In this document: piece after piece, positions 2,667 through 20,000 of the stretch
Layout: every line of letters begins with the position of its first letter
Numbering within the stretch: position 1 is the first letter of the stretch
Assembly: GCA_902784865.1 (NCBI GenBank)
Contig: CACZWL010000008.1
Span: 37,853 to 101,852 of the forward strand
DNA length: 64,000 bases
Direction of reading: 5' to 3'
Source of the DNA: an uncultured Bacteroidota bacterium
Lineage (GTDB): Bacteria > Bacteroidota > Bacteroidia > Bacteroidales > P3
Made by a program: the position numbers and the translations under genes
The notes under the pieces: generated by a model
What the model saw: the letters and a program-made list of their open reading frames with translations, nothing else
What the model was told of the DNA's origin: nothing
The model's database searches: none

Positions 2667-2704
2667 GTGTGTCATGATGTGACGCACCGCTTTGCTATTT
2701 TTGC
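2667..2704 (+). promoter_or_regulatory. Palindrome-plus--7 promoter module, copy 1
   Basis: The imperfect palindrome GTGTGTCA-TGATG-TGACGCAC (2667-2687; 7 of 8 arm positions pair) is followed after exactly 8 bases by TATTTTTGC (2696-2704). The same geometry recurs at 6090 and 7717. The palindrome covers the region from about -33 to -16, so a bound regulator would touch or block polymerase. Confidence 0.7.
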
Positions 2705-2726
2705 AGCCGGAAAAAGACGCTAAGAT

Positions 2727-3398
2727 ATGCAAAAAGAGAAAGACAACATCGACCAGCTGCGCAAGCGGCTGCAGGACTGCGAGGATTATATCCTGCGTAT
2801 TGCAAAGCCATTTGACGGCTATTGGGACAAGGCGACGGAGGAGGTGATTGGCGACCACCTCGGCACCCGGCAATGGATACTCGACAAGATGTTCGAGAAA
2901 CACGCCACCGAGGCCGAGGTGCGGCGCTTCGAGGTGGTCAACGAGAGGTTGCTGGCGCTGACAAAGCAACTGAACGAACGTCACCGCACGCTGCAGGAGC
3001 AGATGGCCGCCATCCACACCCTCGGCGGCGAACCTTTTGAGTTGGAGACCACTCTCCTCTATAGTCACAACGACGAAGATCCGCAACTCTTCATGATGAA
3101 GGAGGATGCCTTCTACGGCTCGCGGTGGAACGAGATGCTGTGGGTCATCGGCGAGAACTCGCGGCTGGACGACATCTGCTGGTGCTGTGGTGATCATATC
3201 TGTAACCTCGACGACGGCCAGACCTGGGCCGAAGGCCCCCTCCGCATCCCCCAGCTCGACCACCTCTGCGTCTGCCATGCCGTCCACGCCCTCTGCACCC
3301 ACATGAACTACTCCATCCCCGACCTCCTCCGCATGACTACCTACGCCTTCAACTACCAGATAAACACGAATGTCGACCCTGTGCCGCTTGAAGGATAA
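2727..3398 (+). CDS. 'HATE'-family hypothetical protein, paralogue 1
   Basis: A 223-residue protein with no recognised domain. It is a paralogue of the products at 6156 and 6850. All three share an N-terminal coiled-coil-like segment, the motif MFEKHATEAEVRRFEVVNER (residues 55-74 here), a second block with FYGSRWNEM near residue 130, and a C-terminal block, YSIPDLLRM. A Cys-rich patch (CWCCGDHIC, near residue 150) is unique to this copy. No transmembrane segment or signal peptide is visible, so it is probably cytoplasmic. It is GC-rich, unlike its two paralogues, and its promoter carries the shared palindrome. The function is unknown. Confidence 0.7.
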   Translation: MQKEKDNIDQLRKRLQDCEDYILRIAKPFDGYWDKATEEVIGDHLGTRQWILDKMFEKHATEAEVRRFEVVNERLLALTKQLNERHRTLQEQMAAIHTLGGEPFELETTLLYSHNDEDPQLFMMKEDAFYGSRWNEMLWVIGENSRLDDICWCCGDHICNLDDGQTWAEGPLRIPQLDHLCVCHAVHALCTHMNYSIPDLLRMTTYAFNYQINTNVDPVPLEG

Positions 3399-3424
3399 AA
3401 TGCGTTGAATTTAGAAAATATTTG

Positions 3425-3433
3425 TATCTTTGC
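3425..3433 (+). promoter_or_regulatory. -7 promoter box
   Basis: TATCTTTGC lies 22 bases before the ATG at 3455. Confidence 0.55.
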
Positions 3434-3454
3434 ACCATAAATATATGCTCATAA

Positions 3455-3784
3455 ATGAAAAACACAAAAGAACAATTATTGCAGATTCAGGAGAAACTGA
3501 ATGATTTGATTGACAGCGATGCCACGCAAGAAGAGGCAATATGGGCGGTAAATAGAATTCTATACGACATAGATGTCAATATTCAACCTGATATAGATTG
3601 GATAGAGCAAGATATTGAATGTACTATTCAACCAACTAAAAGTCAAAAAGAATTGTTGGAAACATACAAAAAGACAATGCGTATGATTCAACACGTAAAA
3701 GACCATTTTGATTTTCCGGACCCGGAAGCTGAGAGAAGATCAATGTTTACTGATGGGTTAAATGAAGAGGATTTTGAATTTTAG
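3455..3784 (+). CDS. Hypothetical AT-rich helical protein
   Basis: A 109-residue acidic protein with charged amphipathic helices (KEQLLQIQEKLNDLIDSDAT) and an acidic tail ending LNEEDFEF. No signal peptide or known motif is seen. Base composition is clearly AT-richer than the preceding gene, so the GC content changes sharply at about 3,400. It has its own promoter box. No function is proposed. Confidence 0.55.
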   Translation: MKNTKEQLLQIQEKLNDLIDSDATQEEAIWAVNRILYDIDVNIQPDIDWIEQDIECTIQPTKSQKELLETYKKTMRMIQHVKDHFDFPDPEAERRSMFTDGLNEEDFEF

Positions 3785-3843
3785 CATCTATGCAAAAGAT
3801 TCTTTTACTCCTAAATTAAAAAAACAATTAAAACATTTGTTAT

Positions 3844-4488
3844 ATGAAACATGTATTTTTTAATCCTTGGGTCGGTTTATGCTACGATTCCGGTATAAAT
3901 GGGAAAAAAATAATGATAATGGGACATGTTCATGTCTGTAGTGACTGCATTGAGTGTGGTATCATTAAAGAAAGAGATGAGGTATGTGCCTCCTTAACAA
4001 ATAAAGCTGTTGAGGATTATTTTAAATGGAGGAAAACAGGAGAAATCCCGACTCCAAAATATAAAGGATGGCTTAATACTTATTTTAATTTTGCCAAAGC
4101 ATTCTTTGGTTACGAGCCTGATTTTAAACAAGAGAAATGTGAACTTTGGGACAATGTGTTGTTTTACAATTACGTACAACGCGCCGTAGCTGATTGGGAT
4201 CAAAAACCAAGTTCGGATGACTATATAAATTCCCAAGTTCCTTTTATGGAGGTTATTAATAAGTATGAACCAGACATCATCATTGTTTGGGGGGATGGTG
4301 CATTTAATGGAGCGCCCGGTGGCGGAAAATTTGGGGAACCAATTATATTTGAAGATATCAAGGCTAAACGATATATATATACATTAAATTCCGGGAAACA
4401 ATGCTCTATGATTAAAATACACCATCCAAGTATGTATTTTTCATCATCCAACTGGCATGAAATCATAAAGTCAATAATAGAGGAGTAG
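3844..4488 (+). CDS. UDG-superfamily-like protein
   Basis: A 214-residue protein resembling uncharacterised members of the uracil-DNA glycosylase superfamily. It opens with FFNPWVGLCYDSG, followed by the beta strand GKKIMIMGHVHVCSDCIECG, where family members usually have a G-E-S-H-Y-C type motif. Near the C-terminus is HPSMYFSSSNWHEIIKSII, which resembles UDG motif 3 (HPS...W). A strand, PDIIIVWGDGAF, lies between them. Glutamate is absent from the first motif (GHVHVC), so the usual catalytic or sensing role may differ. It may be a nucleic-acid or nucleotide sensor in an accessory or defence setting, but that is inference. It is AT-rich and stands between two other small genes of unknown function. 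Confidence 0.5.
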   Translation: MKHVFFNPWVGLCYDSGINGKKIMIMGHVHVCSDCIECGIIKERDEVCASLTNKAVEDYFKWRKTGEIPTPKYKGWLNTYFNFAKAFFGYEPDFKQEKCELWDNVLFYNYVQRAVADWDQKPSSDDYINSQVPFMEVINKYEPDIIIVWGDGAFNGAPGGGKFGEPIIFEDIKAKRYIYTLNSGKQCSMIKIHHPSMYFSSSNWHEIIKSIIEE

Positions 4489-4737
4489 TTATAGGCACAG
4501 GAATAGGATTTGTAACGTATTAACAAATTACTGTTTGAGGTGTTTAAACCGAATGAACAGATTAGGGAAACGATAAGAATATGCGGCCTAGAGATATCAT
4601 TATCTCGGCGGAAAACTAAATGATATATAGACACTGAGAGTCCGTTACAGCGTTATTAACCAAACTAACAATACTAATAAAATCAATAATTTATAAATAT
4701 CTTTTTATTATTATTTTGCTTGTTGAAAGCCGAAAAG

Positions 4738-4760
4738 ATGATAGAGTACATCGCGGACAA
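4738..4760 (+). repeat. 23-bp direct repeat, copy 1
   Basis: Matches 5276-5298 at 22 of 23 positions (C versus T at position 12). The two copies are 538 bases apart and each forms the start of a gene. Confidence 0.85.
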
Positions 4761-5262
4761 TTGGTACTACCGTCTGTTTAATAGAATGATTATGGAGAGC
4801 GAAAACAAGAAACATCAATCGTGGAAATCCAAAGGGCGTATCTGGTATATTTCTAAAGAAGAACCATTGCGTCACATGTATCATGAAAAAAAGGGTGGAC
4901 AGAACTTTTGGAATAACTCACCTTTTGTTCATGGCTCTAATGGAACATACGTTGAAAATGTCAATCCGACATGGACTCTTACCTTTAAAGTTAATTGTCC
5001 CGCTTGTGAGGTTTCCGAACCAATACACTTTAGTGTTGACATCCACGGTTTCATTACCCAAACACTGATGCCCAAACTTGGTTGGGAGAGAATGACTCAA
5101 CCCAGACTTGATAGATTTAATGAAATCTTATCCGGGTTGGCTGTGGAACTTGTGACAACAGATACTGATAAGGCTGCGCTGTATCGGAATTTCTTGCCTG
5201 CTGGTTTCACAAACTGGGACGAATACTTGGAGCAAACGCTTCTTCCAAAATTGATTGAATAA
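4738..5262 (+). CDS. Hypothetical protein whose start duplicates the next gene's start
   Basis: A 174-residue protein from the ATG at 4738; an in-frame TTG at 4720 could also start it. Its first 23 bases (4738-4760) match the first 23 bases of the PLD-like gene (5276-5298) with one mismatch, so both begin MIEYIAD, although the rest is unrelated. Another in-frame start at MIMESENKK (about residue 17) may be the original one. The body contains CPACEVSEPIHFSVDIHG (a CxxC pair) and an acidic C-terminus. No domain is recognised. Its position suggests that a foreign reading frame was captured in front of the PLD gene. Confidence 0.5.
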   Translation: MIEYIADNWYYRLFNRMIMESENKKHQSWKSKGRIWYISKEEPLRHMYHEKKGGQNFWNNSPFVHGSNGTYVENVNPTWTLTFKVNCPACEVSEPIHFSVDIHGFITQTLMPKLGWERMTQPRLDRFNEILSGLAVELVTTDTDKAALYRNFLPAGFTNWDEYLEQTLLPKLIE

Positions 5263-5275
5263 TCTTTGGTAAGTA

Positions 5276-5298
5276 ATGATAGAGTATATCGCGGACAA
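5276..5298 (+). repeat. 23-bp direct repeat, copy 2
   Basis: Second copy of the repeat at 4738-4760. It encodes MIEYIADK at the start of the PLD-like protein. Confidence 0.85.
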
Positions 5299-5791
5299 AG
5301 AACATTACACAAAAGTGCTGGCGCTTTGCGAGAAGGTCAAGCACGATTTGTGGATTGGTACTGCCGACCTGAAGGATTTATATGTGGAGGGAGGTCGGGA
5401 TGTGGTGCCGTTTCTGTCGGTGCTCGACAAGTTGCTGAAACGTGGTGTCGATGTGCGTCTGCTTCATGCCAAGGAGCCCGGAGAAAACTTCCGTGAGGAC
5501 TTCGACAAGTATCCGGGCTTGTGGAGCAGGTTAGAGAGGAGGCTTTGCCCAAGAGTGCATTTCAAGATAATGATTTTCGACTGCGCGGTGGCATATGTTG
5601 GTTCAGCAAATCTCACGGGCGCAGGCATAGGCATGAAAGGCGACAACAACCGCAACTTCGAGGCCGGCATCCTCACCGACGACCCCCAACTGGTCGATGC
5701 CGCCGCCGACCATCTCGACAGCATTTGGCAAGGGATACGATGTACAAAGTGCAAGAGAAAAGCCTTCTGTGGAGACAGAATATCCAAATAA
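5276..5791 (+). CDS. PLD-like phosphodiesterase with one HKD motif
   Basis: A 171-residue phospholipase D-like protein. The HKD motif is complete: H95, K97 and D102 in HFKIMIFDCAVAYVGSANLT, with G109, S110 and N112. One HKD motif per chain means the active enzyme should be a dimer, as in small PLD nucleases such as Nuc. After the catalytic part comes a Cys cluster (CTKCKRKAFC) that could bind metal. No signal peptide is seen. The likely substrate class is nucleic acid or phospholipid, which sequence alone cannot settle. Part of the gene (about 5,380-5,720) is GC-rich while both flanks are AT-rich. Confidence 0.8.
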   Translation: MIEYIADKEHYTKVLALCEKVKHDLWIGTADLKDLYVEGGRDVVPFLSVLDKLLKRGVDVRLLHAKEPGENFREDFDKYPGLWSRLERRLCPRVHFKIMIFDCAVAYVGSANLTGAGIGMKGDNNRNFEAGILTDDPQLVDAAADHLDSIWQGIRCTKCKRKAFCGDRISK

Positions 5792-5809
5792 AAACCACTA
5801 ATAAGATAA

Positions 5810-6055
5810 ATGGAAGAAGAATCAAAAGTCGATTCTGAGAACATGACAGATTTACAAGCAAATCATAAATCGCAACTGAAACAAGGCCACAAGGTACGTA
5901 TTATTAATGGGGAATTTGTCAATAAGGAAGGCGTACTTATCAGCGACTGCGAGGATGGTACTTATTGTGTCAACATATCAGGGTTTGAATTTCCCCTAGT
6001 GGTCACCATTGAGAAGAGTGCCTTAATCCCATTCGAAGAAGACACTAAGCATTAG
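5810..6055 (+). CDS. Small KOW-like domain protein
   Basis: An 81-residue protein starting 18 bases after the PLD-like gene, probably co-transcribed with it. Residues about 25-72 (GHKVRIINGEFVNKEGVLI, then FPLVVTIEKSALIPF) resemble a KOW motif, the RNA- or protein-binding beta-barrel element of NusG and some ribosomal proteins. The N-terminus is acidic and unstructured. Pairing with a nuclease-like protein suggests nucleic-acid binding, which is inference. Confidence 0.55.
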   Translation: MEEESKVDSENMTDLQANHKSQLKQGHKVRIINGEFVNKEGVLISDCEDGTYCVNISGFEFPLVVTIEKSALIPFEEDTKH

Positions 6056-6089
6056 GGAAGAACAATCGTATAAAAAAATATTTTTGGTG

Positions 6090-6127
6090 GTGCGTCACGA
6101 AATGGCACACCATTATTGTATTTTTGC
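6090..6127 (+). promoter_or_regulatory. Palindrome-plus--7 promoter module, copy 2
   Basis: GTGCGTCA-CGAAA-TGGCACAC (6090-6110; 6 of 8 arm positions pair), then 8 bases, then TATTTTTGC (6119-6127). Spacing is identical to copies 1 and 3. The bases after the box (ATCTCGAAA) are shared with copy 3. Confidence 0.75.
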
Positions 6128-6155
6128 ATCTCGAAACAAGTTAATAACAAAGGTT

Positions 6156-6839
6156 ATGGAAGTATACAAAAATGAAGATTTCGAGGTGTTGCGAAAGTAT
6201 TTGAGAAGGTATGAGTGGGATGTTATCTTTTACTCAAAGCCTTTTGATGACTCGCATTGTCCAGATGCTTGGGGCGGATCAAAAATAGAAAATAGGCTCA
6301 ATATCAGAGCTGATATCTTGAACAAAATGTTTGCCATGCATGCCACCGAGGCAGAACTGGAAAGGTTCGAAGAAGTTAATAATAGATTGATGCAGTTGAC
6401 CGAACAGCTTTGTAAATGCCACCGCGATTTACAAGACAATGTGAATCTGATACATAGGGCAGATGGCAGCTCTTTTAAAATACGAACAGACATTTGTCCT
6501 TATTCGGGAATCAACGAGGCAACAGAATTCGAGGAATTGGCAGAAGACACATTTTATGACTCAAAATGGAAAGAAATGATATGGTGCATTAAGGGGTTAA
6601 AGTATGGGAGTGGTCTTTTCTGTGAGGGGAATAATATTCCAAAAATAACTGAAAATGTTGTTGACAGGGAAGCTCCTTTTGATATTCCCATTTTGAAAAA
6701 TATCAATGTATGCTCACTGTTTTATGCATTGTGCACCGAACGGAAATACAGTATTCCTGACGTACTTCGCATCAAAAACTATAAAATAAAGCAAGAGATT
6801 TGTGGTTGGGGCGGTGATGAAATACAGATAACCATTTAA
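6156..6839 (+). CDS. 'HATE'-family hypothetical protein, paralogue 2
   Basis: A 227-residue protein. The start at 6156 (MEVYKNED) is preferred to the in-frame start at 6084, which lies upstream of the promoter. It shares MFAMHATEAELERFEEVNNR (residues 59-78), FYDSKWKEM and YSIPDVLRI with the paralogues at 2727 and 6850. The codons are AT-rich, while the GC-rich first paralogue encodes the same motifs, so the family has diverged widely in base composition. The next paralogue begins 10 bases after its stop, which suggests a two-gene operon. Function unknown. Confidence 0.7.
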   Translation: MEVYKNEDFEVLRKYLRRYEWDVIFYSKPFDDSHCPDAWGGSKIENRLNIRADILNKMFAMHATEAELERFEEVNNRLMQLTEQLCKCHRDLQDNVNLIHRADGSSFKIRTDICPYSGINEATEFEELAEDTFYDSKWKEMIWCIKGLKYGSGLFCEGNNIPKITENVVDREAPFDIPILKNINVCSLFYALCTERKYSIPDVLRIKNYKIKQEICGWGGDEIQITI

Positions 6840-6849
6840 AGAAATTGTC

Positions 6850-7470
6850 ATGAAAAAAGATGCAAAAAAAGAGTTTAATGAGTTAAGAAAACAACTGAAA
6901 AAGGTTGAACAGAATATCCTACTTGACAACAAGGAATATGAAGATTTGGTTTTCAGATTACAGGAGCGTCTTCTATTATTGAACCAGATGTTTTCTATAC
7001 ATGCCACAGAAAACGAGATTCGACGATTGACAGAAGTCAATGATAAACTCCACCAATTGGAAAAAGATTATCTTGACTGGGATAAACATATTCACGCAAG
7101 TTTCAAAAAAATAAAAGATATAGAAGGAGAACAATTCCTTATTGAAACAGAACTCATGCCAAATTTGAAACCACCACTCAATTGCAAATTACATATCATG
7201 GAAGAAGATTTCGACTATGGTTCTCGATGGCAAGAGATGATAGGTGTTATTGGAAGAGAATGTACTGGGAAAAATCTCCCTATTATTTCTGCACAAAATA
7301 AAATCAGTATGAATATCGGTGCATTGAAATATGTAAAACAGATGGATGATTTGTGTGTCGCCGAATTGTTTTGGCAACTGACGGACAAATTTTATCTTAG
7401 TGTTCCCGATATATTAAAAATACAGTATTATCATTACCGCTATAGTCGATATTGGAAATCTGCAGAGTGA
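6850..7470 (+). CDS. 'HATE'-family hypothetical protein, paralogue 3
   Basis: A 206-residue protein directly downstream of paralogue 2. The motif is MFSIHATENEIRRLTEVNDK (residues 47-66). The second block is FDYGSRWQEMIGVIG and the C-terminal block is SVPDILKIQYY. The N-terminal 45 residues are strongly charged and coiled-coil-like. It lacks a promoter module of its own and presumably uses the one at 6090. Two adjacent, diverged paralogues could form a heteromer, which is inference. Confidence 0.7.
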   Translation: MKKDAKKEFNELRKQLKKVEQNILLDNKEYEDLVFRLQERLLLLNQMFSIHATENEIRRLTEVNDKLHQLEKDYLDWDKHIHASFKKIKDIEGEQFLIETELMPNLKPPLNCKLHIMEEDFDYGSRWQEMIGVIGRECTGKNLPIISAQNKISMNIGALKYVKQMDDLCVAELFWQLTDKFYLSVPDILKIQYYHYRYSRYWKSAE

Positions 7471-7481
7471 GCTTTTGTGAT

Positions 7482-7682
7482 ATGAAACTATTTGTAGATT
7501 ATGAGTTGTCGGAAACGGGGCACAATATGGTTGTAATAACGTCATAATATCTTGACTGCCTTGTGGATGCTGCCACAGTTTTCGAGAAGATCAATTATAG
7601 TACACATGCTTTTGATGAAAAGGAATGTCCATGCGCAACAGAACCAATAGATTTATTATGCGGTGATAGTCAATATAATTGA
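7482..7682 (+). pseudogene. Broken copy of the 7786-type small protein gene
   Basis: From the ATG at 7482 the frame reads MKLFVDYELSETGHNMVVITS, hits TAA at 7545-7547, then continues YLDCLVDAATVFEKINYST to a TGA at 7680. It aligns with the start of the intact gene at 7786 (MKLYIDYEAYGENGEP, EITSEYIDALIEKASGIEKI), with the stop falling where the relative has Glu. Homology fades after about 50 codons, so the copy is both interrupted and truncated. Confidence 0.75.
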
Positions 7683-7716
7683 AGCAACCACACACCCCAG
7701 TAAATATAGATTATAT

Positions 7717-7754
7717 GTATGTCATGAAATGGCATAAAGTTGCTGTATTTTTGC
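7717..7754 (+). promoter_or_regulatory. Palindrome-plus--7 promoter module, copy 3
   Basis: GTATGTCA-TGAAA-TGGCATAA (7717-7737; the inner 7-base arms pair at 6 positions), then 8 bases, then TATTTTTGC (7746-7754) and the shared ATCTCGAAA. It drives a gene unrelated to the 'HATE' family, so the module marks co-regulation and not simply a duplicated gene with its promoter. Confidence 0.75.
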
Positions 7755-7785: not shown

Positions 7786-8145
7786 ATGAAACTATACATT
7801 GATTATGAAGCCTATGGCGAAAATGGAGAACCGTTGAAACCCGTGGAGATTACTTCCGAATACATTGATGCACTTATTGAGAAGGCCTCGGGAATTGAAA
7901 AGATTGATTATAGCACGCAGGTGATAGCCGATATTACAGTCAACCGGCCGGACAAGAAGATTGGCAGCGTTCAGCAGATGATGGACGAGTATGGTGTATC
8001 GCGACAACAGGCGGAATTCGCATTGAACATTCCTATGAAGTATGTTCCGCTTTTCTTCGACGACGAAGAATACCCCAAACAGATAGAACGTATGACTATC
8101 ATGCGACGTATTCTTCAAGAGACACAAGATATTTTAAATAATTGA
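7786..8145 (+). CDS. Small hypothetical protein, EYID family copy A
   Basis: A 119-residue protein with no recognised domain. It shares with its neighbour at 8150 the order ITxEYID (near residue 25), a middle linker, a helix with QQAEFAL (copy B: PQEAEFLL), and a charged C-terminal helix ending in an IL dipeptide. The block VQQMMDEYGVSRQQAEFALN resembles a helix-turn-helix-like or helical-hairpin unit, without a confident match. Its promoter carries the palindrome. Copy B follows after 4 bases, so the pair is an operon. Confidence 0.65.
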   Translation: MKLYIDYEAYGENGEPLKPVEITSEYIDALIEKASGIEKIDYSTQVIADITVNRPDKKIGSVQQMMDEYGVSRQQAEFALNIPMKYVPLFFDDEEYPKQIERMTIMRRILQETQDILNN

Positions 8146-8149
8146 TGAT

Positions 8150-8488
8150 ATGGAACTTTACGCAAAACCAATCATTACGACATCGGATGACGGCACCATC
8201 AACATAAAGGTACTGCCTATCACCCCAGAGTATATAGATACACGTCTGGCAGAACTTGCGATACCTGCAGAATTCAACTACGATGTAAGAGAGTATGAGG
8301 CGCTTATCCAATGTGCTTCATCGCACAAGGATGCTGTCGACAGGCTTAAATGGCGGTTCGGGTTGGGACCTCAGGAGGCAGAATTCCTGTTGAGCCTCAC
8401 TATCGAGGAAAAGAAGGTGTATTTTGTCCAAGAGAACTGCGAGGCGGAAATCAGACGTTGGAAAGCATTGAAAGAGGTTATTTTGTAA
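8150..8488 (+). CDS. Small hypothetical protein, EYID family copy B
   Basis: A 112-residue paralogue of the preceding protein: ITPEYIDTRLAEL, then LKWRFGLGPQEAEFLLSLTI and a C-terminal charged helix. The pair has diverged far, so the duplication is old or they arrived as a pair. It sits directly upstream of the RhuM-Fic gene (59-base gap). Function unknown. Confidence 0.65.
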   Translation: MELYAKPIITTSDDGTINIKVLPITPEYIDTRLAELAIPAEFNYDVREYEALIQCASSHKDAVDRLKWRFGLGPQEAEFLLSLTIEEKKVYFVQENCEAEIRRWKALKEVIL

Positions 8489-8547: not shown

Positions 8548-9552
8548 ATGAGAAGTATGGAGAACATCAACGACAAGATAATCATCTATCAGACCGATGA
8601 CGGGCAAACTGCTATCGATGTGCGGTTGGAGAACGAGACAGTGTGGCTGACACAGGCTCAGATGGCGTTGCTCTTTGAGAAAACGCCGCAGAATATAACT
8701 ATGCATATACGAAATGCTTATAGCGAGGGTGAATTGGACGAACGTGCAACTTGTAAGGAATTCTTACAAGTTCGAAGGGAAGGGGTAAGAGAAATAAAGC
8801 GTATGCAAAAGTTTTATGACCTTGATGTCATTATCTCTGTTGGCTATCGCGTGAAGAGTCAGCGAGGTACTGCATTCCGTATCTGGGCAAGAAATGTATT
8901 GAAGGACTATCTCGTCAAGGGCTATGCCGTCAACGAGCGCATCCACAAGGAGCAGATTGGCGAGCTGCGGCAACTGGTGGGCATGCTCGGACGGACCATA
9001 CAAAACCAGCCGCTGCTTTCGACCGACGAGACCAATGCACTCTTCGACGTGGTGACCGACTACACCTACGCCCTCGACACCCTCGACAGTTACGACTACC
9101 AGCGGCTCACCGTCAGCGATACCACCAGCGAGGCTCCTTTCCGTGCCACCTACGACAACGCCATGCAGGCCATCCGCTCGCTGAAGGAACGTTTCGGCGA
9201 GAGCACCCTCTTCGGCAACGAGAAGGACGAATCGTTCAAGAGCTCCATCGGGCAGATATACCAGACCTTCGACGGTGTGGAGCTATACCCCAGCACCGAA
9301 GAGAAGGCCGCCATGCTGCTCTATCTCGTCACCAAGAACCATTCGTTCAGCGACGGCAACAAACGCATCGCCGCCACGCTGTTCTTGTGGTTTCTGAACA
9401 ACAACCGCATCCTCTACCGCGAGGACGGCAGCAAGCGCATCGCCGACAACACCCTTGTGGCCCTCACGCTGATGATTGCCGAGAGCCGTCCTGAGGAGAA
9501 GGATGTGATGGTGAAGGTGGTGGTGAACCTTATCAACAAGAACAACCTATGA
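8548..9552 (+). CDS. RhuM-Fic fusion protein
   Basis: A 334-residue protein. Residues about 10-150 match the RhuM (virulence-associated) domain, which resembles a DNA-binding domain (VWLTQAQMALLFEKTPQNIT, then ISVGYRVKSQRGTAFRIWA). Residues about 160-334 are a Fic/Doc domain with the complete motif HSFSDGNKRIAA (265-276), including the catalytic His265. Fic enzymes transfer AMP or another group from a nucleotide to a target protein. The start could also be the Met at residue 4. The gene changes from AT-rich to GC-rich around 8,930, between the two domains. Its stop overlaps the WYL gene start by 4 bases. A toxin or defence role is typical of Fic/Doc proteins and is inference here. Confidence 0.85.
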   Translation: MRSMENINDKIIIYQTDDGQTAIDVRLENETVWLTQAQMALLFEKTPQNITMHIRNAYSEGELDERATCKEFLQVRREGVREIKRMQKFYDLDVIISVGYRVKSQRGTAFRIWARNVLKDYLVKGYAVNERIHKEQIGELRQLVGMLGRTIQNQPLLSTDETNALFDVVTDYTYALDTLDSYDYQRLTVSDTTSEAPFRATYDNAMQAIRSLKERFGESTLFGNEKDESFKSSIGQIYQTFDGVELYPSTEEKAAMLLYLVTKNHSFSDGNKRIAATLFLWFLNNNRILYREDGSKRIADNTLVALTLMIAESRPEEKDVMVKVVVNLINKNNL

Positions 9553-10451
9553 ACGTACTGAAGAAATATACCTGGCTGGTAGGGACGCTGATGCGGGCGG
9601 GCGAGAAGGGCCTGACGCTGGAGCAGATTGGCGACCGCTGGAACGCTACCGAGGAACTGCATGAGGAGGGTGCGTTCGCACGTCGCTCCTTCCACCGCCA
9701 CCGCAGCGAGATTATGGACCTTTTCGGCATCGAGATTGAATGCTACGTGGATGGCGGGCAGTACCGCTATCGGCTGGCTGATGATGGCGGCCGGGAGTAC
9801 TTCCGGCAATGGATGATGGATTCCATAGCGGTAAACCACGTCGTTGCCGACAGCCGCGAGGCAGCGCAATATGTCCTGGTGGAGCCTACCGACAGCCGGA
9901 TGCTTCCGCTGTTGCTGGAGGCGTTGAAGGAGCAGCGCACGCTGGACTTCACGTATGAGCCCTACTGGAGCGAAGCCCCCTATGAATACAGCAGTGTACA
10001 GCCATACGCTCTCAAGATGTTCGAGCGGAGGTGGTACCTCATCGCCCGCCGTAATGGCGATTACCGCATCTTCGCACTCGACCGCATGACGAAGGTAGGT
10101 CAGCAAGAAGAGACCTACAAGCGCGACCCGAAGTTCGACCTGAAGCAGATGTTCGAGGGTGCTTACGGCATCATCGTGGACGACACACCCATAGAAAGTA
10201 TCCGCCTGAAGGTAGCCGCCTATCAGGCCAACTACTTGCGCTCGCTGCCCCTGCATAGCAGTCAGCACGAGCTGAAACGCACCGAGGAGTATTCCATCTT
10301 CTCGTTGAGGGTACGCCCTACTTTCGACTTCAAACAGAAACTCCTCTCCCTCGGCAGCACTGTCGAGGTGCTTAAACCCGAAAGTCTCCGTGCCGACATG
10401 CGCGGCGAGATACAGGAGATGATGAATAAATACCAAAACGACGATGAATGA
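9549..10451 (+). CDS. WYL-domain transcriptional regulator
   Basis: A 300-residue protein with an N-terminal helix-turn-helix-like region (residues about 5-60, LTLEQIGDRWNATEEL) and a WYL domain (about 125-290). The core reads FERRWYLIARRNGDYRIFALDRM near residue 160. WYL proteins are ligand-sensing regulators, often beside phage-defence genes, and are thought to bind nucleic-acid or nucleotide ligands. It overlaps the Fic gene by 4 bases and the exonuclease gene by 8, so the three are translated from one message. It may control this operon, although no palindrome module is found directly upstream of it. Confidence 0.85.
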   Translation: MNVLKKYTWLVGTLMRAGEKGLTLEQIGDRWNATEELHEEGAFARRSFHRHRSEIMDLFGIEIECYVDGGQYRYRLADDGGREYFRQWMMDSIAVNHVVADSREAAQYVLVEPTDSRMLPLLLEALKEQRTLDFTYEPYWSEAPYEYSSVQPYALKMFERRWYLIARRNGDYRIFALDRMTKVGQQEETYKRDPKFDLKQMFEGAYGIIVDDTPIESIRLKVAAYQANYLRSLPLHSSQHELKRTEEYSIFSLRVRPTFDFKQKLLSLGSTVEVLKPESLRADMRGEIQEMMNKYQNDDE

Positions 10452-10935
10452 CTTTGCGGCGATAGACTTTGAGACGGCCAACGGGCAGCGCAGCAGCGTG
10501 TGCAGCGTGGGGGTCGTTGTGGTGCGCGGGGGCGTGGTGACGGATACGTTCTACAGCCTCATACAGCCCGAGCCTAACTACTACGCCTGGTTCTGCCAGC
10601 GGGTGCACGGGCTCTGCCACGAGGATACGGACACGGCCGAGGTGTTCCCGACGGTATGGCACAAGATAGAGCCCCTCATCGAGGGGCTGCCGCTGGTGGC
10701 CCACAATGCCATGTTCGACGAGGGCTGCCTGCGGGCGGTGATGCAGGTGTACCGGATGGATTGGCCCGGCTATGTGTTCTACGACACGCTGCGTGCCTCG
10801 CGCCGCAAGCTGCGGGGCCTTCCCAATCACCAGCTGCACACCGTCAGCGAGGCCTGCGGCTACTGCCTCGACAACCACCACCACGCCCTGGCCGATGCCG
10901 AGGCCTGCGCGGCCATAGCGCTGAAGATACTATGA
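10444..10935 (+). CDS. DnaQ-like 3'-5' exonuclease
   Basis: A 163-residue exonuclease of the DEDDh family. All acidic motifs are visible: D8 and E10 in IDFETA, D92 in AHNAMFDEG, and H146 with D151 in HHALADAEA. It is a stand-alone domain similar to the DNA polymerase III epsilon exonuclease core and should degrade or proofread single-stranded nucleic acid 3' to 5'. It is the last gene of the Fic-WYL-exonuclease operon and is followed by a hairpin terminator. The high GC matches the host chromosome, so it may be the resident gene at the island boundary. Confidence 0.85.
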   Translation: MNDFAAIDFETANGQRSSVCSVGVVVVRGGVVTDTFYSLIQPEPNYYAWFCQRVHGLCHEDTDTAEVFPTVWHKIEPLIEGLPLVAHNAMFDEGCLRAVMQVYRMDWPGYVFYDTLRASRRKLRGLPNHQLHTVSEACGYCLDNHHHALADAEACAAIALKIL

Positions 10936-17049: not shown

Positions 17050-20000
17050 TTATCTGACGATGAGTTTGCGTATCGCGCTCACCTGCTCGCCCGTCACACG
17101 CACGAAGTATGTGCCGCGAGCCAGGCCTGCCACGTCGATAGTAATCTCTGACTTCTGGGTGCTGGTTTCTGAGTGGACGCGGCCGTTGATGTCGACCAGG
17201 GCTATGCTAACCGCGCCCTCGAGGCCGTCTATCGTCACCGTGCTGCTGGCGGGGTTGGGGTAGAGCCGCAGCTGCGAGCCGTCGGCATCCTCGATGCCCA
17301 CGTCGGTCAGCGTGTTGAAGGTGTAGGTGGCGCTCCAGTCGCTCGGCTGGTCGCACACGGCACGTACCTTGACCGTATACTGTGTGCCGGGCGTGAGGCC
17401 TGTCAGCGTGTAAGGGTTGCTTGCGGTGCGCACCTGGGTGCCGTTGCAGTCTACCTCCCACAGCGTCTCCGTGCCGCCAGCCGTCCAGGCCAGCGTCGCC
17501 TCGGTCGTCGCTATATTGCTGGCCGTCAGGCCTGTCGGGGCGTTGCAGGACAGCGGTTCATCCTCTTCGAAGTGGGCAATGGCCGACAGCGCTTCTGTCA
17601 CCGTCAGGCTGAGGGGGTTGTCGGTGAGCAGTGCGGTGTAGCCTGGCGTGATGGCCCAGCCTGTAAAGTGGTAGCCCGTAGCCGGGGTGGCCGTCAGGGT
17701 GGCTGTCGAGCCGTGGTTGTAGGTGCCGCCGCCGCTGACGGTGCCCATCGTGTTGTCGCTGGACGTGACGCTGACGGCGTAGGTGTTGATGGCGAAGGTG
17801 GCGGTGAAAGTGGCGTCGGCCGTGACCGTCACGGTGCGTGGGTTCTGCGTGTTGCCGTCGTTCCAGCTCACGAAGTGGTAGCCCGTGGCCGGGGAGGCCG
17901 TCAGGGTTGCTGTCGAGCCGTGGTTGTAGGTGCCGCCGCCGCTGACGGTGCCCATCGTGTTGTTGCCGGACGTGGCGCTGACGGTGTAGGTGTTGATGGC
18001 GAAGGTGGCGGTGAAAGTGGCGTTGGCCGTGACCGTCACGGTGCGTGGGTTCTGCGTGTTGCCGTCGTTCCAGCTCACGAAGTGGTAGCCCGTGGCCGGG
18101 GAGGCCGTCAGGGTGGCCGTGGCGCCTTGTATGTAGGAGCCGCCGCCGGTGACTGTTCCCCACGACGTGTTGTTCGAGGTGGCGGTGATGGTGAACCGGG
18201 GTTGGGAGACGCCCAGCTGCACGTTGTCGATGGCTGCCGGCGGATTGTTGCCGTCGCTGTGGTCGTTGTACCACATGAAGACCACGCGGTAGTCGCCAGC
18301 CGTGGCTACCTGGAAGGTGTAGAGTGCGTTCTGCCACGAGGTTTGCAGGTTCAGCTTGCCTTCGGCAAGGTCCTGCCAGCCTGTTGGCGTGGTGGTTCTG
18401 AAATCTTGCGTCGTCGAGCCGAAGGCTGAGCCGTCGGGTGCGACGCTGGCGGGGCAGAGGAAGACGCGCAGGAAGTCGTAGTTTCCCTCGCCGTTGCACT
18501 TCCAGTCGAAGGCCAGGTCGTACTGTCCGGCGGCAAGGGTGAAGGAGCGCATGGCATAGCTGAAGCAGGTCTGTGTGTTGGTGTAGGTGTTGCTGCTGCC
18601 GTTGTTGTCGCTGATGTAGAGGGCGCGGCTGCCGCCGTTGTTAGTGGCGTTGCCGATGGCCCACTGGTTGGGGTTTCCGTTGTTGTACTCCCAGTCGCAG
18701 TCGTCGGCAGCCTCGAAGCCCGTAGTGTAGGGCAGGGTGCTGACGGGAAGGATGATGCGCTCGAGCGTGAAGTTGTCGATGGCTGCCGGCGGGTTGTCGC
18801 CCTGGCTGTTGTCGTTGAACCACAGGATGACGATCTTGTACACCCCTGCCGCAGCCACCTGGAAGTTGCGCTGGAGGCCTGCCTGCCACGTCTCCTGCCC
18901 GTTGAGGAGGGAGCCTGTGATGTCGGTCCACCCCGTCGGCACGTAGGTCCGCGCAGTCTGGGCGCCGGTGTTGAATTGCGACGGGTCGGGTGTGGCGTTG
19001 CCCGGACACAGCAGTATGCGCATGAAGTCGTAGTTGCCCTCGCCTTTGCAGCGCCAGTCGCAGGTCAGTTGGTACTGTCCGGCGGCAAGGTTGAAGCTGC
19101 GCGTGGCAAGGCTCGTGTTGGTCTGGTTGTTGGTATAGGCGTTCGTGGTGCCGCCGTCGTTGCTGATATACAGGGCGCTCGACCCGCCGTTGCGCGTGGC
19201 GTTGCCGATGACCCACTGGTTGAGGTTGCCGTTGAAGAACTCCCAGCCGCGGTCCTGTCCCACCTCGAAGCCTGTGGTGTAGGGCAGTGTCGACACGGTG
19301 TCGTAGATTATCGGCGCGTTGACGATGGCGCGTATCATGCAGGTGCGCTGCCAGCCGGAGGAGTAGATGCTGTTGAGCCCTGAGCCCCACAGGAGGCCGT
19401 TGGTGTTGCCGCTGCCGTGGGTCAGTGCCACGGGGTAGTTGGCGGTGGCGCTGAACGACACCCAGACAGGCTGGTTGCCGCTGAGGGTGACGGGGTTGCT
19501 GAGGGTGATGGTCTGCCAGGTGTCCTCGTCGCTCGAGGTGAAGGTGACCGACCCGCTGGCAACCGCGTTCGAGGTCGAACCCTCGTAGATGGTGTAGTTG
19601 TGGGTGGCGCCTTCGTTCACGTAGAGCTGTATGGCCGTCAGTTGGCTGTTGGTGCCTATGGCCGTGGCCGGCAGCATAATGCCCCAGGTGGCGGTTGACC
19701 CGTTGCCGATAGAGGAGACGTAGGCGCACTGGTTGCCGCAGTATGAGAGGGTGTCGCCGTAGATGGCCTCGAAGTGGGCGGTGAACGACTGGTTGCCGCC
19801 CGTCATAAGGAGCATGTGGGGGTTGGCGCGGCTGCCGTCGGACCACCGGCTGAAGCGGTAGCCGCTGGGGGCTGCGGCATGGATCTCGACGGTGTCGCCG
19901 AAAGCGTAGGAGCCTGCACCGCTGACGCTGCAGCCGGTGCCGCCCGACACCGAGGTCGTCACCGTGCCGCTGGTGCCGAACGTGGTGGAGGGCACGATGC

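Follow-up and report, generated by a model that had tools for sequence, protein, structure and literature searches.

A WYL-linked promoter class of Bacteroidales with a layout most like that of DriD

What reads a palindrome that recurs, at one and the same distance from the promoter box, in front of unrelated genes of a single genomic island? The question is raised by a 64,000-nucleotide stretch of DNA from an uncultured Bacteroidales bacterium (assembly GCA_902784865.1, contig CACZWL010000008.1, positions 37,853 to 101,852 of the forward strand; hereafter the window), in which three promoters share a 21-bp palindrome placed 8 bp upstream of a -7 box. To our knowledge, little is known about the control of the defence-like islands of Bacteroidales, and in the literature found, judged by titles and abstract openings, no WYL regulon of Bacteroidota was described. 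On sequence evidence, palindrome, gap and box are a WYL-linked promoter class of Bacteroidales, which is more general than first noted and has a layout most like that of the DriD promoters. The module is probably read by the WYL factor of the island itself (9549-10451), acting as a DriD-like activator of a variable regulon of defence-like genes.

A promoter module with fixed spacing

All three modules are built alike: an 8-base arm, a 5-base spacer and the reverse arm are followed by exactly 8 bp and then by the box TATTTTTGC. The 8-bp arms form seven of eight Watson-Crick pairs in module 1 and six of eight in each of modules 2 and 3.

2667..2687, + strand: palindrome of module 1, 21 bp, predicted site of a WYL dimer; 8-bp gap 2688-2695 after it
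2696..2704, + strand: -7 box TATTTTTGC of module 1; ATG 22 bp past the box
6090..6110, + strand: palindrome of module 2, 21 bp; 8-bp gap 6111-6118 after it
6119..6127, + strand: -7 box TATTTTTGC of module 2; ATG 28 bp past the box
7717..7737, + strand: palindrome of module 3, 21 bp; 8-bp gap 7738-7745 after it
7746..7754, + strand: -7 box TATTTTTGC of module 3; ATG 31 bp past the box

This common design at 2667, 6090 and 7717 had been proposed in a sequence-only reading of the window; it was confirmed by re-reading the sequence and lies far above chance. The same reading held that the modules precede two unrelated protein families, and the genes starting at 2727 and 7786 indeed have no BLASTP similarity. 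The downstream stretch ATCTCGAAA, said to be common to copies 2 and 3, was found in both, but is no specific evidence for the module, because a weaker A-rich downstream trend is also present in 99 non-module promoters.

The full module, with up to three mismatches allowed, matched four times in the 2.4-Mb genome of the bacterium (the three window copies and one on contig C7), and a reversed control pattern did not match there under the same rule. In 149 evenly drawn genomes of the family, the pattern gave 128 matches in 54 genomes versus one match for the reversed pattern; 128 is the sum of the table, in which a few matches are one palindrome read on both strands. Matches were found on both strands of one contig. 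The palindrome alone was rejected as the unit, with 43 matches versus 31 for the control at up to two mismatches, which is near background; the specificity sits in the palindrome together with the fixed gap and the box.

A weight matrix applied to 704 kb, made up of the window and 40 fetched stretches, detected 105 sites of at least 17 bits, and block-shuffled sequence gave no site of at least 14 bits. As the fetched islands (L071-L110) were chosen for their pattern matches, their site counts are not genome frequencies. When palindrome and box were scored apart and gaps of 0-39 bp were allowed, 101 of 103 pairs in the fetched islands and the window had a gap of 8, which speaks against the random spacing that the earlier reading had named as its own refutation. 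Because gap-8 sites served to train the matrix, the weight of the spacing result falls on the motif-free test of WYL upstream regions given below.

The palindrome takes the place of a promoter element. In Bacteroides thetaiotaomicron a motif with -7 and -33 elements is reported upstream of 81% of the primary start sites, and for Flavobacterium johnsoniae the same source reports no identifiable -33 element (PMC7366714). Among 96 module promoters not one carried a -33 TTG (17-23 bp), versus 35 of 99 other TAnnTTTGC promoters of the fetched stretches; for TTTG at -33 the counts were 0 of 96 and 23 of 99. Since the palindrome occupies the -33 columns, this is a replacement of the -33 element and not an independent loss.

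At G000:C5:113289-113508 the 21-bp near-palindrome GTGTGGCATTAGATGGCGCCC occurs in three copies within about 220 bp; the full module does not match there.

Association of the module with WYL genes

The gene family most widespread in the fetched islands encodes the WYL protein (23 of 29 genomes), followed by the RhuM-Fic fusion and the PLD protein with 18 of 29 each; the genome of the window itself has one WYL match at E 1e-10. For 79 genomes of the same genus, the overlap of the WYL search and the module search, both genes and modules could be scored (close WYL: at least 350 bits; module: E <1e-7). Both were present in 32 genomes, WYL only in one, the module only in 16 and neither in 30 (odds ratio 60, p 4e-9); in other words, 32 of 33 genomes with a close WYL carry the module versus 16 of 46 without. 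The thresholds were chosen after the tables had been viewed, and the corresponding counts are 31/2/16/30 with the mismatch pattern and 29/4/8/38 with E <1e-10; all three p values are below 1e-7. A sequence-only model (R1) matched in 119 of 120 same-genus genomes at E 0.01; these matches are presumably mostly ordinary promoters, and just those with E <1e-7 were used for this reason. The earlier suggestion of the nearby WYL protein as candidate regulator is borne out to the extent that it appears to be the best partner of the module.

On 31 of the 33 contigs with a close WYL gene the nearest module lies 139-4279 bp away, according to a hand-compiled list of modules. The two exceptions are G088, whose contig stops just past the RhuM gene, and G112, with the module on another contig. 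In addition, base p5 of the site follows the WYL clade, with A in 0 of 22 and in 16 of 55 sites and C in 4 of 4 sites of the respective clades, as expected for a regulator and its own site. The analysis comprised 81 sites in loci with a hand-assigned WYL and left out others; sites of one island are not independent.

More distant WYL genes of the family were inspected for sites of their own. Upstream of 39 paralogues (40 loci initially, L167 being dropped from the gap count) the strict motif T.TG..CA.A plus TAnnTTTG was found at a gap of 8 in ten cases (eight distinct sequences), of 13 in two and of 14 in two; among 257 other open reading frames (ORFs) of the same stretches it occurred five times, each time at gap 8. 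In three of the gap 13-14 cases (L151, L156 and L158), and in L165, a slightly laxer rule detected a further box on the opposite strand at a distance of exactly 8; L165 scored gap 13 just in the motif-free scan. In L158 (genome G085) the gap-8 side precedes an ORF of 68 amino acids. One palindrome may serve a neighbouring gene at 8 and the facing WYL gene at 13-14. For DriD, a preprint names CCNA_03891/CCNA_01149 as activated genes, and not driD (PMC12340889). The motif-free test, which required at least six of eight pairs and covered both strands of 63 WYL upstream regions, gave palindromes at gap 8 in 12 cases (four on the other strand), with at most four at any other gap; L207, L162, L167, L170, L177 and L186 were excluded as contig ends or near-duplicates.

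Imperfect sites of this kind are also present in cultured Segatella species. About 13 kb around the WYL gene was scanned by a lax rule in records labelled as plasmids, one each from Segatella copri DSM 18205, S. hominis and Prevotella sp. E2-28. Eleven matches had a gap of 8, eight of them 26-76 bp ahead of an annotated gene, and 12 matches were distributed over ten other gaps (4 to 14) combined, several being the same palindromes shifted by 1-2 bases. Imperfect gap-8 sites lie 45 bp before the WYL gene of S. copri and 33 bp before that of S. hominis; in Prevotella sp. E2-28 the gap-8 site precedes a later gene, not the WYL gene. The S. copri AAA protein, encoded by the second gene behind a gap-8 site, shares 50% identity with the AAA protein of the islands, and the S. 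hominis PLD protein and the E2-28 exonuclease are 60-64% and 67-70% identical to their island relatives. A search for the strict motif over 150 kb of the S. copri record gave three matches at gap 8 and one each at gaps 4 and 5, the gap-5 match being a gap-8 palindrome seen from its reverse side; the site before the scanned WYL gene is missed under this rule. In the S. copri DSM 18205 record (L283, 19264-22244) a WYL gene is annotated in two pieces flanking an IS607/TnpB element, with a gap-8 palindrome upstream at 18776.

Mode of action and rival explanations

The WYL protein of the window contains a WYL and a WCX domain (PF13280, E 7.5e-15; PF25583, E 1e-12; both above cut-off), and its N-terminus has no match to a helix-turn-helix family in Pfam. 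The AlphaFold model places helices at 3-20, 24-33 and 48-59 and strands at 63-68 and 71-76. In 25 relatives F48 is invariant and R50 and R52 are nearly so, a pattern which resembles the recognition helix of PafB. The nearest sequences in the PDB are DriD and PafBC, and Foldseek with the model ranks DriD (1e-14) and PafBC (3e-12) ahead of CapW (3e-7) and BrxR (4e-5). Close relatives of the protein come from metagenome-assembled genomes of uncultured Bacteroidales, many of whose titles name the rumen, omasum or rectum of sheep, goat, deer or buffalo.

DriD of Caulobacter crescentus is described as a homodimeric WYL activator with the printed consensus ATACGAC(X)7GTCGTAT, which has 21 letters (20 bp in the text); in its promoters the site overlaps a poor -35 element and has one distance from the -10 element in the aligned promoters (preprint PMC12340889). 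The protein of the window shares with DriD the WYL-WCX layout and the predicted N-terminal helix-turn-helix, and DriD is its best PDB match by sequence as well as by fold. Read as 7+7+7, the window site matches the DriD site in size and position: it is two-fold, covers the -33 region and keeps a constant distance to the -7 box, and the -33 element is absent. Unlike in Caulobacter, the -7 box is of the Bacteroidales type, the half-sites have another sequence, a variable island of defence-like genes stands in place of didA, bapE, recJ and dnaG, identity in the fold match is only about 20%, and the first WYL arginine for single-stranded DNA (ssDNA) is an alanine.

Two mycobacterial activators offer further comparison. 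PafBC promoters are not known to have a -35 element and carry the RecA-NDp motif with N8 spacing. PafBC is a WYL activator inserted between the promoter and sigma domain 4, where it reads a -26 element (PMC11804915), and is reported to be a heterodimer with a non-palindromic site (PMC6789036); the window, by contrast, has a palindromic site and a single WYL gene. SiwR of Mycobacterium smegmatis is described as a homodimeric WYL activator with a 19-bp imperfect palindrome between -35 and -10 beside its own gene (PMC10693628). It is described with one adjacent operon, unlike the scattered island regulon proposed for the WYL protein of the window.

From these comparisons we propose that a WYL homodimer would bind the 21-bp palindrome (about 7+7+7) at the -33 place, 8 bp from the -7 box, and would anchor the housekeeping RNA polymerase on promoters which have a good -7 but no -33 element, as DriD does in Caulobacter. 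It would thereby switch on the scattered island genes, namely family A, family B with RhuM-Fic, the WYL gene itself and the exonuclease, and in relatives AAA ATPases, nucleases and other defence-like genes. The candidate signal, ssDNA arising from damage or phage attack, is the weakest step. Binding of ssDNA by PafBC is reported to be lost when R211 and R214 of PafB are changed, together with the PafC pair or alone (PMC11804915), and by alignment one of these two arginines is kept in the window protein. Sensing of ssDNA is uncertain because the other is replaced by alanine, and for the same reason the protein is said to work like DriD and not to be a DriD member. If the reading is correct, it suggests that the DriD mode of activation also works with Bacteroidales promoters, and it would be testable in the cultured S. 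copri DSM 18205. We also put forward, as a distinctly tentative extension, that the islands form an SOS-independent alarm regulon of Bacteroidota, in which a DriD-like WYL protein senses nucleic acid from damage or phage and a plug-in promoter of 38 bp, composed of palindrome, 8-bp gap and -7 box, connects it to exchangeable defence genes; genes would join by gaining a module, and islands would decay after loss of the WYL gene.

Several observations weigh against this WYL-dependent activation. The AlphaFold model is of moderate quality (predicted local distance difference test score, pLDDT, 75.7; predicted template modelling score, pTM, 0.51) and its best DriD match has a TM-score of 0.46; with such a model and TM-scores below 0.5 against the query, the fold ranking is soft. 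The alanine at the position of PafB R211 lies in the motif FALDR and is nearly invariant in the 25 relatives, the second arginine being kept. The likeness in spacing to DriD promoters concerns the constancy of the distance between site and -10 and not its length in bp. Upstream of 25 of the 39 WYL paralogues the strict motif is missing at any gap. At order level, where 90 of 295 genomes had a match and the 30 best-scoring loci were kept, 26 of 29 loci lack it at gap 8 (three have gap 8 and one has 18), which leaves most distant WYL genes uncovered. The WYL genes of S. copri and S. hominis are preceded by poor palindromes, with four and five of eight pairs, respectively, and five of six motif bases. 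Finally, 16 of the 48 module-positive genomes of the genus have no close WYL. In five of these (G057, G061, G124, G135, G052) the module is followed by island-gene remnants or by no called ORF, and in G126 the contig edge is reached. In G147 a module directly precedes a WYL paralogue (35% identical), and the target in G130 is intact but of a different kind; G107 and G133 have intact targets, yet no WYL match at 1e-10. In seven genomes the module stands before a conserved gene of about 81 (80-83) amino acids with no WYL in the stretch. These orphan loci (L269-L275 in G099, G077, G102, G091, G104, G065 and G124) encode proteins of which most start with MEAELFFEKLF or similar, and their stretches hold no island gene except for a weak AAA match (27.6%, E 5.5e-4) in L271.

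The same protein might act in the opposite direction. BrxR and CapW, which belong to the same protein class, are described as repressors of phage-defence loci with palindromic or inverted-repeat sites (PMC9122601, PMC9122588), and a WYL protein which blocks the promoter from the palindrome until a phage or damage signal releases it would fit a site that lies inside the promoter and, in several genomes, ahead of the regulator's own gene. A blocker needs no fixed spacing, however, and the site of the window lies at the -33 place with one exact spacing. CapW sites are reported to overlap the -10 element and the BrxR repeats to lie directly downstream of the promoter (PMC9122601, PMC9122588), whereas in each of the three copies the palindrome stops 8 bp short of the -7 box on its upstream side; both proteins also rank behind DriD and PafBC by sequence and by fold. 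Because the site takes the -33 place as in DriD, and not that of CapW or BrxR, activation appears likelier than repression, which we regard as unlikely. The palindrome could further be read by another protein, such as RhuM-Fic or an unlinked regulator, with the WYL protein as a mere neighbour. RhuM-Fic is as frequent in the islands as stated above, and both the 16 module-bearing genomes without a close WYL and the orphan module conserved in seven genomes would agree with such a reader. But part of the WYL paralogues in other genera have a site directly upstream, the site drifts with the WYL clade, and in the annotated Segatella and Prevotella stretches, where WYL and gap-8 sites are both present, no gene bears a RhuM or Fic label, all of which makes another reader improbable.

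The arms raise the question whether the palindrome acts as a folded strand, that is as a hairpin, a terminator or a cassette recombination site, the promoter being a by-product. The earlier reading had noted arm changes which keep pairing, and this holds in part: covariation of the arms is 0.284 versus 0.202 in shuffles and 75.0% of the cells are paired versus 69.3%, values which none of 500 shuffles reached, although the covariation is inflated by related sites, and a like signal would be expected from paralogous WYL proteins whose sites differ. A T-rich stretch often follows the palindrome, and modules precede many unrelated genes, as would suit such an element. On the other hand, the inner bases show conservation of sequence, the five outermost arm positions are unpaired in 36-56 of 86 rows, pairs with double changes (10 versus 8.8 in shuffles, 81 of 500 shuffles reaching 10) are not clearly above expectation, matches occur on both strands of one contig, and neither a hairpin nor an att site needs an exact distance to the -7 box. 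A folded strand is thus very improbable, and we read the arm pairing as probable dimer symmetry combined with paralogue specificity. An integron-like cassette array was rejected, as matches lie on both strands and are tied to the promoter box. Chance or the recent duplication of one locus, which the earlier reading had set as a refutation, can practically be dismissed: copies 1 and 2 do precede paralogous genes and share 65% identity over the nearest 20 bp upstream (copies 2 and 3 downstream, 75%), but the 100-bp flanks of the window copies are only 23-38% identical, and the controls given above gave one match against 128 and no shuffled site of at least 14 bits against 105 of at least 17 bits. 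The earlier proposal of a regulon with its own repressor or activator is hence supported by recurrence throughout the family, association with WYL, sites upstream of paralogues and drift of the site with the clade, and seems to lean towards an activator.

Genes behind the modules

The genes of the window which bear on the module are as follows.

2727..3398, + strand: family A gene 1, 223 amino acids, behind module 1
5276..5791, + strand: PLD-like nuclease with a below-cut-off likeness to DrmC; island gene, carried by 18 of 29 island genomes; without a module of its own in the window
6156..6839, + strand: family A gene 2, 227 amino acids, behind module 2
6850..7470, + strand: family A gene 3, 206 amino acids, 10 bp past family A gene 2 and presumably in one operon with it
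7786..8145, + strand: family B gene 1, 119 amino acids, behind module 3
8150..8488, + strand: family B gene 2, 112 amino acids, weakly similar to family B gene 1 (20% identity, E 3e-4)
8548..9552, + strand: RhuM-Fic fusion, 334 amino acids, RhuM N-terminal domain and Fic domain; best PADLOC match PDC-S23, a candidate family
9549..10451, + strand: WYL-WCX regulator, 300 amino acids, helix-turn-helix region predicted at the N-terminus; proposed to read the palindrome
10444..10935, + strand: DEDDh-type exonuclease (RNase_T/DEDDh), 163 amino acids, overlapping the WYL stop

Behind module 3 the family B genes, RhuM-Fic, WYL and the exonuclease follow each other with short gaps or overlaps. This run looks like one operon, and as a member of it the WYL gene is possibly autoregulated. 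Family A gene 2 is 36% identical to family A gene 1. Just upstream of module 2, at 5810-6052, an 81-amino-acid protein has a match below cut-off (E 3.7e-6) to the C-terminus of UpxY/NusG antiterminators.

An ORF call follows 91 of the 105 matrix sites, and 76 of these ORFs start 14-45 bp past the box. The largest clusters behind modules, obtained by single linkage, are an AAA ATPase of about 556 amino acids (14), family A (13; the cluster has 14 members, one being a PLD protein joined by linkage), a family of 194 amino acids (8), family B (8) and the exonuclease (6), whose relatives have a module of their own in six fetched loci. No model of the libraries tried was above cut-off for families A and B and the 194-amino-acid family. 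For family A gene 1 no Pfam or NCBIfam family was above cut-off and PADLOC and PHROGs gave no match; the AlphaFold model of family A (pLDDT 74.3; four other models 44-50) had no notable match in the PDB (best E 2.0). If the proposed regulon is real, the module provides a simple search string for such co-regulated, still unnamed island genes.

The AAA ATPase partially matches the IetA models of PADLOC, and among the other genes behind modules there are matches to the candidate families PDC-S26 and PDC-S48, to FtsK, to GyrB, and to AAA_5 together with a REase_II model. The RhuM-Fic protein of these islands is covered along its length by the PDC-S23 match, and their PLD protein is covered partly by DrmC. 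Among the 20 proteins scanned no complete known defence system was identified, the PADLOC matches being partial or to candidate families, so that these matches are hints pointing to defence and not proof of it. In L083 and L268 (G124:C21) an intact module is followed by a 69-amino-acid ORF that begins like family A and finishes like the PLD protein, a fusion such as an island in decay would show. DUF262 proteins recur beside WYL and the exonuclease in L281 and in the islands L075 and L079, and the gene order in Prevotella sp. E2-28 is WYL, exonuclease, DUF262, DUF262.

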